Source of the DNA: Rivularia sp. PCC 7116
Lineage (GTDB): Bacteria; Cyanobacteriota; Cyanobacteriia; Cyanobacteriales; Nostocaceae
DNA: 64,000 nt
NCBI RefSeq assembly: GCF_000316665.1
Contig: NC_019678.1
Span: forward strand, 7,039,001-7,103,000
Direction of reading: 5' to 3'
Part shown: piece by piece, positions 57,653-64,000 of the stretch
Layout of the letters: each line of letters begins with the position of its first letter
Position numbering within the stretch: position 1 is the stretch's first letter
Notes under the pieces: model-generated
Told to the model about the DNA's origin: nothing
Seen by the model: the letters and a program-made list of their open reading frames with translations, nothing else
Databases searched by the model: none
Made by a program: the position numbers and the translations under genes

Positions 57653-57680
57653 AAATCCCTAGCTTCTAGCTAGGGGATTT
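57653..57680 (-). terminator. Hairpin overlapping the DUF928 stop codon
   Basis: AAATCCCTAGC (57653-57663) pairs with GCTAGGGGATTT (57669-57680) with one bulged base; the stop codon of the DUF928 gene lies in the loop. Confidence 0.4.
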
Positions 57681-58568
57681 GTTCTCAGCTGGAGAATCCT
57701 GGCAGCAATTGCTCAATGGTACTTGAGAAATTTGCTCCAAACCAATTAGCTCTAGCATTTGATTCCACTCTATATTCTTACGGGTAAGATATTTCATTTG
57801 GGCAAAAGTCACCATTGCATCGTACCAAATACCATGTTTGGCATAAAATAATCCTCGTTGACGTGGCGATAATCTTTTTAACTGCTGTTCAAAACCAGAA
57901 GCAATTGCTTCTCTTTTTACCCATGCTCTAGCAAATTCTTTGCGAGATTTTTCATTATAGCTACAATCAATATCCATAAATAAATAATATTGATACCATT
58001 CACCAACTTTTAAAGTTGCCAAATCAGCCTCGATAGGAATGCCAATTACTCCTGGTGTATTAGTGAACTGTATTTTTTTCTCGTAAATTGTTTTGTTTTG
58101 CCGACTGCGTAAAGAAAATTTAGCATTACTTATAGAACTTAATTTATAAGGAACGTAAAACCAAAATATCGGATTGGCTTTTGTTGTCAAACCCCAACGC
58201 AATACTCTTCCATCTGTTTGTTTCGTTACAGGTACTAAAGCGCTCAGTGGCGTTTTTTCTGCGACATAACAACCATTACGACTTCCTGCCGGTGTTGTTC
58301 CTTGTGGTGTTCCTTGCCTTTGGGGTTGTCTAAAATATAAAAAACTCTTACGCGGTTTACTGTTACCGAATGTTTGTTGATGCCGACGAGGTACATTAAG
58401 ATTACGCGTGCTTTCAGGTTTTTTTCGATTTACTTGAGATGCATTATTTTGTTGCCTATTTGTCGATGAGTCAATTTTTTCAGCCTTCACCGGTAACGAA
58501 CTTATTACAAGTATTAAGTTGATAGTAAATGAAAGCTTAAATAGTTGGTAATATTGTGATTTCAGCAT
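57666..58568 (-). CDS. DUF928 domain protein
   Basis: 300 aa. A signal peptide (about 1-28, VKA/EKI) and a basic, Gln/Arg/Pro-rich linker (30-95) precede the DUF928 domain: GRNGCYVAEKTPLSALVPV-like start, then NPIFWFYVPYKLSS, GVIGIPIEADLATLKVGEWYQYYLFMDIDC, the helical end RLSPRQRGLFYAKHGIWYDAMVTFAQM, and LLGLEQ-like ELIGLEQI. DUF928 is a cyanobacterial family of unknown function, commonly encoded beside CHASE2/CHAT proteins, as here. A pair of cysteines ends the protein (NCCQD). The CHAT-CHASE2 gene is 255 bases upstream on the same strand. Confidence 0.88.
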   Translation of the reverse strand: MLKSQYYQLFKLSFTINLILVISSLPVKAEKIDSSTNRQQNNASQVNRKKPESTRNLNVPRRHQQTFGNSKPRKSFLYFRQPQRQGTPQGTTPAGSRNGCYVAEKTPLSALVPVTKQTDGRVLRWGLTTKANPIFWFYVPYKLSSISNAKFSLRSRQNKTIYEKKIQFTNTPGVIGIPIEADLATLKVGEWYQYYLFMDIDCSYNEKSRKEFARAWVKREAIASGFEQQLKRLSPRQRGLFYAKHGIWYDAMVTFAQMKYLTRKNIEWNQMLELIGLEQISQVPLSNCCQDSPAENKSPS

Positions 58569-58823
58569 TTTATATGTCTGTTTAAAGTAATTAAATATAT
58601 GAATCTTATGGATTAATTTTGGGATTGAGTTTAGAGGATATTAGTAATACCTAATTTGTATAAAATGAACTATAAACTAAACTTTGATTTTAGCTAACTA
58701 TATCTAACTTTTTATGAATTTTTATTAAATTTACTTTAGACTATCAACTAATCGTTATTAATAGATATTCTATGAATATTTTGTCTCTAGGGGTATCAGC
58801 CATAAGTTGGAATTTTATCAAAG

Positions 58824-61121
58824 TTATAGCTGTGGTTTATACTTATAAATAATAACTAAAAATCCTGTAGTTGATAGCAAAGCTAACTTGGATGGAATAA
58901 TTGGCAACCAAACACCATTAATAAATACAAAAAATCCAACTCCGTACATAACGAAAATAGTTATAAAAGTTGCACCTACTAATAAACGCAACGAATGAAT
59001 TTGCAAAACTAAAATCCCTCCGCAACAAGCCCAAAACCCAATCCATAATATTTCTAACCATAATGATATTGGTGATAGCAAAGGACGTTTATCTAATACT
59101 GCATTCAGTATTTGGCTGACCGCTTGAGCGTGTACTATTGCTCCGGGAGTATATTGCTCGGATATTGGTAATTTATCGCTGTAGGGAGTACGAAAATGGT
59201 CGCTAGAAGTTGAAGTCATTACACCAATAATAATGATTTTGTCTTTAATTTGTTCTGGTGTAACTTTACCTCCTAAAACATCTTTGAGAGAAACAATGTT
59301 AGTAATTTGATTGGGGGAACGATAAGAACGATAATTAAGTAAGATTTGATTTCCCCAAGTATCTGCTTTTTGATAACCACCACTGTGCTGACTCAAACGT
59401 GAAAAAACAACGTCACCTAAATGCCAATTACCCTGTCTAAATTCGGGCTGAATTTTTTCGTCTTTTAAATAATGTAATGCTAATTGGAAACCAAAAGACC
59501 AAGTAGTAGGACAATTTGAACCAACCGGTACATCCATTGATAGAATATAGCGGCGCAAAACACCATCATCATCAAGGAGGACGTTACTAAAACCCAGGCG
59601 CTCTTCTGGTATTTCTGGTGGAGGTGCGATTCCGGTATAATCTCCACTTGGTTCTCCTACATGGCATATTGCGAAGAAGCGATCGCTATTTAATAATTTA
59701 CTTTTTAATTTTTTTTGTGCGGAATTTACCGGAAAATCGCGAAAAATATCCAAGCCAATTACTCTAGGTTGATGAGGTTCAAGCTTTAGTAGCAATTTAT
59801 GTAATGCACTATCTGCCAAGGAGCCTTTTCTATCTTTTTGTTCCGGTAGCTGAAAATCTGTTTCCCTTATTCCTACAACTAACAACCTTTCTGAAGGACC
59901 TTCATCGGGACGCGATCGCATCAAAAAATCATAAGCTTGCAATTCCCATTTTTGCAAAAACCCCAGTTCTCGAATTCCCAAAATAAAACTTGTAATTAAC
60001 ATACTGGCTAAAACCATTGTTTTCAAGCTGTTTCTAGGAGAACCAACCGATTGCTTCCACTGCATCGGTTTGATTGTCGGATGTTCGCATATTATGGGCA
60101 ACCAGCTAGCACCGGGATATTCTGCTTCTAACCCTTGCAATTTTTCTCTAGCTGTGCGGACAGCAATATATATAGATTCTCCAGTAGAAAAAGTTGTTAG
60201 AAAATACTTTAAGAATTGTTGAGCAACAAAATCAGGAACGGCTTCCTTCATTACGATAATTTGCCCAATATGTAAATCCTGTAGTTCTGCAACTAGCCCC
60301 AATCCATCGCAAGAATTAAAAATTGCTAATTGCAAACCGTTGCGAGCGGCATTTCTCAAAGCATATCTGAGTTCGGCAATAGTTAAACTATCTTCTTGAT
60401 TAATGTATATCCTACCTGTATTTTCTTCGGTTTGAGTGTGACCTGCAAAAAATAAAATATTCCAATTCTGGTTCCATAATTGCTCGTTAATATCTTGTCT
60501 TCGAGGCTGTACTAAAAAAGTTGTATCTGCATTTTTCAAATTTTCCAATAGCTGTCTATCTTGTCCTACATCAATTCCATCGCTATTACCCAAAATCGCT
60601 AAAATTTTGACTTTCCTCCCAGAGATAGATGTCTGCGGTATATCTATCCGATCTGAATTATAAGCACTTAAGGTAATTTCAGCTTTGGGATAATCGCGAT
60701 CGACTAAATCCCATAAATGCCAGGGAAGTTTTTTAAGCTGTAAATTATTAGTATTAATTAGTACTCGTATTTCATCAGAGGGCATCAAATATTTCAGCCA
60801 TTTCTCACGAATTGGTCGAAATGACTCACTTAAAAGCCATTGATTGAGATAATTACGCAACTCACAAGCTTTTTTCTGACAATTTTTTCGGTTTTCGGAT
60901 AAGGAACCGTAAACAATTTTATTAACTTTGATACGGTTTAATTCACCGTTACTTCCATAAAGGGAATACCATTCATCAATTGCATTTACCATCTGCGGAA
61001 TTGCAGGTAGACTACAGGCAACTTGTGTAGTTAAATGCGCCCCTTCAGACCCAATTTCCAATGTTGCCCGCACTCCTGAGAGCAAGTCACCATCAAGCTT
61101 AAGTACTACTAACTTTCTCAT
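58824..61121 (-). CDS. CHAT-CHASE2 membrane protein (caspase-like peptidase fused to sensor)
   Basis: 765 aa. The first 360 residues form a CHAT (caspase-like) domain. The likely catalytic dyad is H228 (ILFFAGHTQ) and C271 (LAIFNSCDGLG), followed by the usual AVRTAREKLQGL segment. Helix 1 (about 365-385) leads into a CHASE2 extracytoplasmic sensor domain (about 390-685; FLQKWELQAYDFLMRSRPDEG start, VIGLDIFRDFP, DGVLRRYIL, LNYRSYRSP), then three helices (about 692-760) end the protein. The layout therefore places a peptidase in the cytoplasm under control of an external signal. No kinase or cyclase domain is attached, as there often is with CHASE2. The DUF928 gene is downstream. Substrates and stimulus are unknown. 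Confidence 0.9.
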   Translation of the reverse strand: MRKLVVLKLDGDLLSGVRATLEIGSEGAHLTTQVACSLPAIPQMVNAIDEWYSLYGSNGELNRIKVNKIVYGSLSENRKNCQKKACELRNYLNQWLLSESFRPIREKWLKYLMPSDEIRVLINTNNLQLKKLPWHLWDLVDRDYPKAEITLSAYNSDRIDIPQTSISGRKVKILAILGNSDGIDVGQDRQLLENLKNADTTFLVQPRRQDINEQLWNQNWNILFFAGHTQTEENTGRIYINQEDSLTIAELRYALRNAARNGLQLAIFNSCDGLGLVAELQDLHIGQIIVMKEAVPDFVAQQFLKYFLTTFSTGESIYIAVRTAREKLQGLEAEYPGASWLPIICEHPTIKPMQWKQSVGSPRNSLKTMVLASMLITSFILGIRELGFLQKWELQAYDFLMRSRPDEGPSERLLVVGIRETDFQLPEQKDRKGSLADSALHKLLLKLEPHQPRVIGLDIFRDFPVNSAQKKLKSKLLNSDRFFAICHVGEPSGDYTGIAPPPEIPEERLGFSNVLLDDDGVLRRYILSMDVPVGSNCPTTWSFGFQLALHYLKDEKIQPEFRQGNWHLGDVVFSRLSQHSGGYQKADTWGNQILLNYRSYRSPNQITNIVSLKDVLGGKVTPEQIKDKIIIIGVMTSTSSDHFRTPYSDKLPISEQYTPGAIVHAQAVSQILNAVLDKRPLLSPISLWLEILWIGFWACCGGILVLQIHSLRLLVGATFITIFVMYGVGFFVFINGVWLPIIPSKLALLSTTGFLVIIYKYKPQL

Positions 61122-61366: not shown

Positions 61367-62797
61367 TTACCCTTCAATTACCACATTCTCAGCAACTTTA
61401 GCCACACAGGTAAGGACATAATCATCATCGCATCCAAAGTCCTTATCATAAGTAACCTTTCCAGAGACTTTGCGTAGTTTACATTGTCCGCAAACACCCA
61501 TTTGACAGCCATAAGGAAGGCTAATTGCTTCTCTTTGAGCGGCTTCTAAAATAGTTTCATTACTCGAACAAATTACCTCCTGTTCGGATTTTTTAAAAAC
61601 TACAACTGCTTGGGAAGTAGGTATTAAAGCTGTTTTTACACCCGTGGATAAACCAAAACTCTCTTGATAGTAATTATGCATGGGGAACTGAATTTTTCCT
61701 AAAATAGTTTCAACACTCTCAAGAAAACTTTCAGAGCCGCAAACATAAGCAATACGTTCTACTAAATCGGGAGCCATTTCTAATAGCATTGTCTCATTTA
61801 ATCTGCCTTTGTAACCAGTCCAATTTAAATCAAATTCTTTGCCAGTTAGATTAATCGCTAATTGAAAATTAGAATATTTCGCAGCCATCAACTCCAACTC
61901 TTCTCGAAAAATAATATCTTCTTGAGTGCGAGCGCTATAGATAAAAATCACTGAAATATTTGCATTGGTATCGCAAATCCAACGAGACATCGACATCAAA
62001 GGTGTAATTCCGCTACCAGCACTAATAAATACAAGTTTCTTATGGGAATTTTCAAAATAGTTAAAATCACCCATAGGGGGACTTATTTTGAGTTTATCTC
62101 CAACTTTAAAGTAATCGTGTAAGCAATTAGAAACTAATCCTGGAGATAAGTATGGTTGATTTTGCGGCGCAGAAACGCGCTTAACTGTTATTTCTAAATT
62201 GTAGGGTCGTGAAGGGCTAGAAGAGATAGAGTAAGCACGTTTAACTTGTTTGCCTCCAATTTCTAAATCCAACATTACAAACTGTCCGGGTTTGTAATTA
62301 AAGGATGCATCGTTAAATAAGATAGGCGGCTCGGCGACTAAACGGAAGGTTTTAACGTCATCAGTTTCTTCAATTATGTCACAACACCGTACTGTAAATT
62401 CTGTTTGTTGTTTCTGCTGATTTATGTTTGGAAAAATTAATGTGTTGGCATCAGATAAAGGCTCGCCTTCGGAATGTAAAATTGATTCTTCAAATTCAAA
62501 CAAAACAATAAAATCGCCAATCCGAATAATGTCACCCAATTTCAGTAAAACACTTTCGTTAACGGTTGCCTCTAGATTATTAATCTTGGAACCATCCGTA
62601 CTTGCAAGGTCAATATAATAATATTTTTTGTCTTGGTACAAGATGATGGCATGTATCCGACTTACTTCAGGACTATTAAGAACAAAATCGCAGTTTGGGT
62701 GTCTTCCAATTAGACATTTCGATGGATTTTCTTCTGTAATTTCAATCAACTGTTCTTGAAAATAACCAGTAATATAATTGAATGCTTTAATCTTCAT
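61367..62797 (-). CDS. FHA / ferredoxin-NAD(P) reductase / 2Fe-2S ferredoxin fusion
   Basis: 476 aa, three domains. Residues about 25-105 are an FHA domain: LIGRHPNCDFVL, SRIHAII, STDGSKINN. Residues about 132-360 are an FNR-like oxidoreductase: FAD-binding RAYSISSSPSRPY, NAD(P)-binding VFISAGSGITPLMSMSRW, and AYVCGSESFLESV. Residues about 395-476 are a plant-type 2Fe-2S ferredoxin with C431, C436, C439 (GCQMGVCGQCKLR) and C464 (VLTCVA). Electrons could pass from NAD(P)H through FAD to the cluster or the reverse, gated by binding of a phosphothreonine protein through FHA. No membrane segment. The neighbour on the same strand (130 bases upstream) is a membrane protein with a further cysteine cluster. 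Confidence 0.92.
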   Translation of the reverse strand: MKIKAFNYITGYFQEQLIEITEENPSKCLIGRHPNCDFVLNSPEVSRIHAIILYQDKKYYYIDLASTDGSKINNLEATVNESVLLKLGDIIRIGDFIVLFEFEESILHSEGEPLSDANTLIFPNINQQKQQTEFTVRCCDIIEETDDVKTFRLVAEPPILFNDASFNYKPGQFVMLDLEIGGKQVKRAYSISSSPSRPYNLEITVKRVSAPQNQPYLSPGLVSNCLHDYFKVGDKLKISPPMGDFNYFENSHKKLVFISAGSGITPLMSMSRWICDTNANISVIFIYSARTQEDIIFREELELMAAKYSNFQLAINLTGKEFDLNWTGYKGRLNETMLLEMAPDLVERIAYVCGSESFLESVETILGKIQFPMHNYYQESFGLSTGVKTALIPTSQAVVVFKKSEQEVICSSNETILEAAQREAISLPYGCQMGVCGQCKLRKVSGKVTYDKDFGCDDDYVLTCVAKVAENVVIEG

Positions 62798-62927
62798 AAT
62801 CTTTAACCATAATATTTTTTACATCAATAGTTTATCGATGTTGATTTTGTGAATATTCATAAAATAGGAATTACAATTATTTGGATAAATATTAATTTAT
62901 CTTGATTTAATCTAACTACAAACTATA

Positions 62928-64000
62928 CTAATATCGCTTACGTCTGATGACTGTTGGTTCGTCTGCTTCTGAAGATTTGTCGCTGTTTTCAGAAGATAAT
63001 TTATTAGTGTGAGACGATTTTATTTTATATTGAGTTTTATATAATAACTCAGGATTTTCTTCGGCAATTTGCGATAATATTGAATAATGAGCTTCTTGAT
63101 TTAAATCTAAATGGAATCGTATTTCGCTTAAATACTGAAAGCTATTTTCCGAAGTAAAATTATTCTTAACTAAACCATCTTCAAGTATATGCTTATAAAT
63201 TTGCCATCGTTCTGTATCTCTAAATTTTGGGAGCGCAGATGCAAGTAAAAATAACTCATCAGATGTCAAATCATTTAACGAACGTTGATTAATTAATGAA
63301 GATACATCCACTGGAAACTTCTCGATTTGGCGACGAAAACTATGGGCTAAACTATCTTTATTGTACTTTTCTTGACTGTGATTCCAAGCGCTAACTAACC
63401 AAAAAGCACTGACAAACACTACAACAGCATTGAACAATAATTGTCCAATCATAGGTAATCGAATTATTTCTGGACGACCTCCATATATAAAAAAGCAGTT
63501 AAAAGCTAAAAAAGTACACAGCGAAAAAAACCGGTGTAAAACCTGTTGATAACTTATTTGGGGCTGCTTCTTTTTAAAATAAGTAGTAAAAAGTTTTTCT
63601 AGTTTTCGGCAAATCCAATAAGTGATAGTGACACCTACCAGAAAAGTTAAAGGAACCGCAACAATCTTTGGTATATTAATTGCCTGCTCAAAAAGATAAA
63701 ATCCGGGTTTCCAAAGAGTTGCTAACTGATTTTCCTCATGAGTCCAAGCACCAGAAAAGTAATAGTCGAAATTTCCAGCATATAAACGGTAATAGACGAA
63801 ATAGCTAATCACTAATCCTAGATAGCCGTATTGAACCAATTTCCTTCCTGGTGTTCGCAAGTCTTCCCAATAAGCTTTTTCTGCATCGATGTCAAAACAA
63901 GCAGATTTACAACCAATACAAGCACTTATCTCTTGTCCAGTTTTTTGATCTACAGTTCTACACATAGATTGCGTGATACTACCGGGGACTGCGGATGAAG
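62928..64000 (-). CDS. Membrane protein with CxxCxxxC cluster, 5' partial
   Basis: The frame runs from the TAA-side end at 62928 to beyond base 64000. The ATG at 63965 is internal to an open frame (SSAVPGSITQS precedes it), so the gene probably starts outside. From that Met: cysteines 2, 16, 19 and 23 (CRTVDQKTG, then SACIGCKSACFDID) suggest an iron-sulfur site. About four membrane helices follow (44-62, 95-120, 145-162, 172-195), then a cytoplasmic helical tail (200-345) ending SEADEPTVIRRKRY. The TVIRR tail is threonine-containing and could be a phosphorylation target for the adjacent FHA domain (inference). I do not recognise the family with certainty. Confidence 0.7.
   Translation of the reverse strand, partial: SSAVPGSITQSMCRTVDQKTGQEISACIGCKSACFDIDAEKAYWEDLRTPGRKLVQYGYLGLVISYFVYYRLYAGNFDYYFSGAWTHEENQLATLWKPGFYLFEQAINIPKIVAVPLTFLVGVTITYWICRKLEKLFTTYFKKKQPQISYQQVLHRFFSLCTFLAFNCFFIYGGRPEIIRLPMIGQLLFNAVVVFVSAFWLVSAWNHSQEKYNKDSLAHSFRRQIEKFPVDVSSLINQRSLNDLTSDELFLLASALPKFRDTERWQIYKHILEDGLVKNNFTSENSFQYLSEIRFHLDLNQEAHYSILSQIAEENPELLYKTQYKIKSSHTNKLSSENSDKSSEADEPTVIRRKRY

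Follow-up and report, generated by a model that had tools for sequence, protein, structure and literature searches.

An FHA–reductase–ferredoxin fusion and a membrane iron–sulfur protein form a conserved cyanobacterial gene pair and a candidate phospho-gated electron-transfer switch

Introduction

Docking of FHA domains onto phosphothreonine controls enzymes in other bacteria, and in eukaryotic NADPH oxidases phosphorylation governs how a path for NAD(P)H electrons is assembled at the membrane. Here we describe a gene pair in the cyanobacterium Rivularia sp. PCC 7116 that may use such docking to direct electrons into a membrane protein. The pair lies at the end of a 64,000-nucleotide stretch (contig NC_019678.1, positions 7,039,001 to 7,103,000 of the forward strand; hereafter the window), where RED, a 476-amino acid (aa) protein with an FHA domain, a FAD/NAD(P)H reductase, and a plant-type 2Fe-2S ferredoxin (61367..62797, minus strand), adjoins MEM, a Fer4_5 membrane iron–sulfur protein that is partly contained in the window (62928..64000, minus strand). 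We propose that a phospho-gated docking switch joins RED and MEM as a regulated electron-transfer unit, a reading to which the sequence evidence leads us to assign a probability of roughly 0.6. From the pair we also predict a docking code, T-x-[ILVM]-[RK], in which individual residues can be named.

The closest described proteins to MEM are the Fer4_5 proteins NapH, NosR, PceC (RdhC), and CcoG, with which it shares the Fer4_5 match, multiple transmembrane (TM) helices, and a CX3CP motif followed by further cysteines predicted to be cytoplasmic. The NapH/NosR module has two CX3CP motifs according to the available passages of PMC5928378, whereas MEM has one, with WX3CP in place of the first and a single C-x13-C-x2-C-x3-C group. 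By the features given in those passages, MEM is a relative of NapH, NosR, and PceC with only one intact CX3CP. It differs from all four proteins in its four additional TM helices and in carrying a threonine tail or FHA and cyclic-nucleotide-binding (cNMP) domains. An assignment to CcoG/RdxA/FixG (TIGR02745) was rejected, as a homologue 89% identical to the window MEM (L110) gave only a weak match, scoring 18.8 bits against a cut-off of 316.7.

Reductases of the HCR/GbcB/PaaE type have the same order of FAD, NAD(P)H, and Fer2 domains as RED (GbcB E 2.4e-91) but no N-terminal FHA domain, and RED falls under the cut-off of every named model, including that of GbcB itself (NF058606; 306.4 against 500 bits). 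The actinobacterial proteins OdhI and GarA share with our pair an intact phosphothreonine FHA domain and a short threonine motif nearby; RED scores 28.3 bits against the OdhI model cut-off of 200, and in the short class of pairs it is the membrane partner that bears the motif. The likeness to eukaryotic NADPH oxidases is one of working only, since no sequence relation was found and no haem-bearing TM core was seen in MEM. Literature searches by title or abstract start found no paper naming a RED–MEM system, and the open PMC literature (subscription papers being outside its scope) gave no account of FHA docking that gates electron flow into a membrane protein.

Results and discussion

Conservation of the pair

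The co-occurrence that an earlier note on this DNA had proposed looking for across cyanobacteria is borne out: the pair occurs in many of them as a two-gene unit. In a survey of 145 genomes of the family, where RED was counted by hand at matches under 1e-50 and weaker matches were other reductases, we detected MEM in 47 genomes and RED in 39. Both were present in 38, RED only in 1, MEM only in 9, and neither in 97 (Fisher 4e-25, a descriptive value because the genomes are related). A genome scan covering bacteria and archaea returned 447 MEM relatives, of which 80 were kept; by record title 79 of these are cyanobacterial, and one (L175) is labelled a Gracilibacteria bin. At 54 of these 80 loci RED follows downstream of MEM at a distance of no more than 2 kb; the remaining 26 have no RED in the stretch, some of them being at contig ends. 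Across the phylum MEM was present in 50 of 386 genomes, and across the order RED was present in 67 of 388. In the window the two genes share a strand and are separated by 130 bp.

The FHA–reductase–ferredoxin fusion

The earlier note had read RED as an FHA domain fused to a complete NAD(P)H–FAD–2Fe-2S chain, and all four Pfam domains are indeed above their curated cut-offs. In order along the minus strand these are FHA (residues 29–94, 62516..62713; 60.7 bits against a cut-off of 20.7, and 1.8e-16 for the whole protein), FAD_binding_6 (residues 146–247, 62057..62362), NAD_binding_1 (residues 257–363, 61709..62029), and the 2Fe-2S domain Fer2 (residues 403–468, 61394..61591). The phosphothreonine-site residues on which the note's idea depended are intact, with Gly31, Arg32, Ser46, and His49 found in 64 of 64 REDs, as are Ser66 and Gly69, while Asn73 is found in 61. 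Position 68, which in the consensus is usually Asn, is Asp in the window RED. Judged by its Pfam score and conserved residues, this is a phosphothreonine-site FHA domain with predicted binding. The Fer2 cysteines (CX4CX2C...C; Cys431, Cys436, Cys439, and Cys464) are kept in 95–96% of the 64 REDs. A different fusion was seen in a 12.3-Mb genome in which no MEM was found, where an FHA domain and a FAD/NAD reductase are joined to an MFS transporter (907 aa, L089:9661-12384:+) with no ferredoxin match.

The membrane iron–sulfur protein

MEM was likewise as the earlier note had described it, an adjoining same-strand membrane gene with a CxxCxxxC cluster and a tail ending DEPTVIRRKRY. Its open frame covers 62928–63998 in the window and continues past the edge; the whole protein has 557 aa (L009:3929-5602:-, in the 8.73-Mb genome containing the window), and its end would fall at window coordinate 64601. 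The C-terminus is ADEPTVIRRKRY; CIGCKSAC is C228xxC231xxxC235. Obtaining the upstream end, as the note had advised, brings in C97 together with the C177/C181 CX3CP motif. The cysteine pattern is thus WX3CP at C97, one CX3CP, and then the single group C214...C228xxC231xxxC235 (63897..63962, minus strand). Across an alignment of 51 homologues none of these seven cysteines varies, nor does His90 or His356; a broken MEM outside the alignment (L153) has Ser in place of C177. The Fer4_5 match of the window MEM reaches 26.4 bits against a cut-off of 22, and other MEMs fall on both sides of it.

A predicted model of the L110 protein has a mean pLDDT of 79.9 and a pTM of 0.77, with pLDDT below 50 at residues 207–217, 223–237 (the Cys loop), and 524–557 (the tail); low model confidence is not special to the tail because the Cys loop has it as well. 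With TM limits set by hand from the helices of this model, Lys plus Arg per loop alternates along loops 1 to 7 (2.5, 7.3, 1.0, 8.4, 1.0, 3.9, and 1.7), so MEM probably has 8 TM helices with both termini and all seven invariant cysteines on the cytoplasmic side. The two invariant histidines and His11 (92%) are also predicted on this side, and no spaced pair of haem ligands across a helix was recognised. In the first outside loop, past the window edge, residues 53 and 60 form a further cysteine pair that is present as both in 43 of the 51 homologues, as neither in 7, and as a single cysteine in 1. A phmmer search of the PDB gave no hit to MEM up to E 1, a profile search gave coiled-coil chance matches only, and Foldseek found no structural relative (best E 1.6, TM-scores about 0.1).

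MEMs fall into short proteins of about 550–640 aa with no extra domain and long ones, near 1100 aa, that add an FHA domain and a cNMP-binding domain; MEMs of about 930–960 aa with the cNMP domain but no FHA were also seen, and no RED was observed next to them. Relatives of about 930–1020 aa with no RED in the stretch are L097, L098, L099, L100, L101, and L105; the two that were scanned, L097 and L105, have a cNMP-binding domain and no FHA.

A threonine motif as a predicted docking code

The predicted docking site on MEM is the motif T-x-[ILVM]-[RK] in the cytoplasmic tail, which in the window protein spans residues 521–557 (62931..63041, minus strand) and holds T550 in PTVIRRKRY. With MEMs under 450 aa and identical tails excluded, we found the motif in 29 of 35 short MEM tails next to RED (4.6 in shuffles), and the 48 motifs in these tails compare with 4.87 ± 2.19 after shuffling (maximum 13 in 2000 shuffles). 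Among short MEMs with no RED in the stretch it occurred in 3 of 15, two of them at contig ends; the third (L115) is from Calothrix parasitica, which judging by matching positions seems to be genome G083, whose RED has no ferredoxin and is located elsewhere. Because the pattern had been chosen after seeing the tails, it was checked, with the same exclusions, on held-out loci, new and under 85% identity, where 10 of 12 short MEMs carry it (9 of 11 if L216 is left out, a long MEM that looks like a fragment and may match by chance). These hold 12 motifs against 3.03 ± 1.67, a number reached in none of 5000 shuffles; one further new MEM, the thirteenth, whose RED is over 2.5 kb distant, has no exact motif. 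In the last 46 residues of the non-redundant set, the motif is present in 29 of 40 short MEMs and 99 of 1588 other open reading frames, and two or more copies occur in 16 and 3, respectively. The tail threonine singled out by the earlier note is therefore part of a recurring motif, in the first and the held-out tails alike.

The same segment could instead be a basic membrane- or partner-binding tail that is no phosphosite, the FHA domain binding something else. The tails are rich in Lys and Arg, and 6 of the 35 short tails lack the motif, as this would lead one to expect; the pattern is nonetheless specific for threonine, with 48 Thr versions in the same short tails compared to 6 with Ser, 1 with Ala, and 5 with Gln, and we regard such a tail as improbable.

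Long MEMs suggest a variation on the proposed docking. After 113 pair loci were reduced to 66 non-redundant pairs at 85% RED identity, 18 of the 66 had an FHA domain in MEM. In the linker between the FHA and FNR parts of RED (3 of the 66 pairs were dropped because one of these parts was not found by BLAST), the motif T-x-[ILVM]-[DE] was detected in 10 of 17 scorable FHA-MEM pairs compared to 4 of 40 in the short class. The long-class linkers hold 11 such motifs against 2.29 in shuffles, with none of 2000 shuffles reaching that number. Since long MEMs have their own FHA domain and their REDs a linker threonine motif, reader and site may swap partners, so that either protein may carry the phosphothreonine reader while its partner carries the site. 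Many long-type REDs (for example L083:7099-8853:-) also show another conserved stretch in this linker, roughly YMP[LV]A, which was not seen among the short-type linkers listed.

Linked Ser/Thr kinases

The earlier note had also suggested looking for a Ser/Thr kinase with the pair, which we found near pairs in other genomes but not within three genes of the window's own. A Ser/Thr kinase gene lies within three genes of 23 of the 66 non-redundant pairs against 3.46 expected, an expectation drawn from genome density (734 kinases in 103.5 Mb of 14 hand-picked genomes) at an E-value limit that differs from that of the loci count. Pfam matches of 13 linked kinases revealed 7 kinase–periplasmic-binding receptors (L125, L129, L155, L197, L199, L211, and L229), 2 CHASE2-kinases (L083 and L164), 2 kinase-WD40 proteins, 1 kinase-FGE protein, and 1 kinase alone; L155 and L199 are outside the 66, the second pair gene not being in their stretch. 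In Nostoc-type loci, a CHASE2 gene with a Ser/Thr kinase stands at the place where the window has a CHAT-CHASE2 gene. The tail threonine motif was not enriched in the linked kinases (14 against 21 expected).

Proposed mechanism

We infer phosphorylation, docking, electron transfer, its on-direction, and its acceptor from these sequence features. In RED, NAD(P)H would supply electrons that pass by way of FAD to the protein's own 2Fe-2S ferredoxin. A Ser/Thr kinase, elsewhere often a receptor kinase encoded next door, would phosphorylate one or more threonines of the disordered MEM tail, here T550, and the RED FHA domain would then bind the phosphothreonine. This docking would bring the ferredoxin to a Cys/Fe-S site that MEM presents to the cytoplasm and turn electron flow into the membrane on, with plastoquinone or O2 as the putative acceptor. 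In long MEMs docking may be partly reversed, MEM reading the threonine motif of the RED linker.

Docking might also work in the opposite sense and sequester RED, so that phosphorylation turns electron flow off by a logic like that of OdhI and GarA. The sequence evidence for docking carries no sign, and T-x-[ILVM]-[DE] in long-type RED linkers could also bind in cis. The tail, however, lies on the same face of the likely acceptor as its cysteines, which would favour delivery over sequestration and leads us to think an off-switch quite doubtful.

Several observations weigh against the gated on-switch. Within the same loci, kinases occupy 23 of 342 near gene slots and 12 of 282 far ones, which is not a significant difference (p 0.12), so the kinase linkage rests on genome density; no Ser/Thr kinase lies within three genes of the window's own pair (L009). 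The exact motif is absent from 6 of 35 and 2 of 12 tails, including L113 and L123 near the window's clade, and long MEM tails are not enriched for T-x-[ILVM]-[RK] (28 against 23 expected). The pattern was defined after inspecting the first tail set and the sequences are related, so the shuffle counts are not true probabilities. No electron path from the cytoplasmic cysteines of MEM across the membrane was evident. Finally, among 60 fetched RED stretches MEM is present in 37 and absent in 23, and the congener G083 has a RED without ferredoxin and its MEM elsewhere. In favour of the pairing, 21 of 23 tested genomes that lack a linked MEM (20 represented by a fetched RED stretch and 3 unfetched) encode MEM elsewhere; the two without are G686, which is 76% complete, and G018, in which an FHA-reductase is fused to an MFS transporter in place of ferredoxin. 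No other clear conserved partner was found beside REDs without MEM in 25 loci, where one family was near RED in 6.

Candidate electron acceptors

Vanadium haloperoxidases, which need H2O2, were detected within three genes of 12 of the 66 pairs. They occupy 12 of 342 near slots and 2 of 282 far ones (p 0.016), and about 0.05 would be expected near pairs by a rough hand tally of density. The genes are upstream of the pair in some lineages and downstream in others, and they are of two sequence types, both confirmed through PDB relatives of four proteins and profiles from their clusters; no curated NCBIfam model matched among 9 proteins, so the naming rests on the PDB relatives. A red-algal-type vanadium bromoperoxidase (L073:12205-13806:-) and a NapH-type vanadium haloperoxidase (L079:12165-14039:+) are directly beside MEM–RED pairs. 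In 5 of the 66 pairs, all of the Nostoc-type arrangement, a gene for a Cu/Zn-superoxide dismutase (SOD) with a lipobox (by eye) comes immediately after RED or one gene later. Neither haloperoxidase nor SOD lies within three genes of 49 of the 66 pairs, the window's own among them, and 32 of the 66 lack kinase, haloperoxidase, and SOD alike.

This linkage led us to consider O2 as the acceptor. The same switch would then be a NAD(P)H oxidase-like source of superoxide or H2O2 outside the cytoplasm, with SOD converting superoxide to H2O2 and haloperoxidase forming hypohalous acid. The lipobox of the SODs, the RTX-like repeats of the L121 haloperoxidase, and the signal-like starts of the Moorena ones (by eye) fit such a location, but several haloperoxidases have no signal peptide by eye, and the SOD linkage comes from one arrangement. 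The 49 pairs with neither enzyme nearby also speak against it, as do the window genome, where there is one partial match to one haloperoxidase type and none to the other, and MEM itself, in which no membrane-spanning haem-ligand pair was recognised and whose invariant cysteines are predicted on the cytoplasmic side. SOD and haloperoxidase could equally well defend against oxidants from elsewhere, and we consider O2 a rather unlikely acceptor.

Because the MEM cysteines are predicted on the inner side and no outward route was seen, quinone is no less likely than O2 as the acceptor. The pair would then be a kinase-gated NAD(P)H:plastoquinone oxidoreductase, providing regulated entry to the photosynthetic or respiratory chain. 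MEM is a Fer4_5, NapH-like protein, and available passages of PMC5928378 propose that the membrane part of NapH handles quinol. The conserved cytoplasmic cysteines also fit electron entry from a cytoplasmic ferredoxin. Such a role leaves the haloperoxidase and SOD linkage unexplained, and no structural relative of MEM was found in the PDB; we hold it as a tentative possibility.

A receptor-kinase-controlled oxidant generator would combine these elements, with a CHASE2 or periplasmic-binding receptor kinase sensing an outside signal and phosphorylating the MEM tail, the FHA reductase being recruited, electrons exported to O2, and secreted SOD and haloperoxidase making hypohalite. We think this unlikely as a whole; if true, it would be a prokaryotic counterpart of the oxidative burst, in some genomes beside CHAT (caspase-like) modules. 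The available passages of two papers report that cyanobacteria release extracellular superoxide (PMC6247811) and that, when marine phytoplankton genomes were surveyed, their annotation revealed no enzyme dedicated to producing superoxide (PMC10128935). The RED–MEM pair is a concrete candidate for a controlled source of superoxide or H2O2.

Genomic context

The CHAT-CHASE2 gene (58824..61121, minus strand; identified by Pfam and comparison of loci) comes after RED, and a DUF1822 gene and a 232-aa gene with no Pfam match run divergent from MEM; calling the latter sigma-like would be a guess on our part. More broadly, genes for CHAT-CHASE2, DUF928, DUF1822, a TPS-domain secreted protein, and a TPR-CHAT protein flank the pair (window 57666–61121 and L009:6752-16090), and this set recurs partly in related loci. 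Kaur et al. (2021, PMC8195603) describe, in the passages available, DUF1822, an ECF sigma factor, and EACC2-caspase genes whose C-terminal parts vary. Given its CHAT-CHASE2 and divergent DUF1822 neighbours, the redox pair may sit in a system of this type; ferredoxin, haloperoxidase, and superoxide do not come up in those passages.

A PADLOC search for anti-phage defence returned no match for RED, MEM (the L110 homologue), or CHAT-CHASE2, and its kinase models matched the linked CHASE2-kinase of L083, as expected for a kinase domain. In the congener G083 (L075 and L076), where MEM is elsewhere on the chromosome, a 396-aa RED with no ferredoxin match still precedes a CHAT-CHASE2-like gene.

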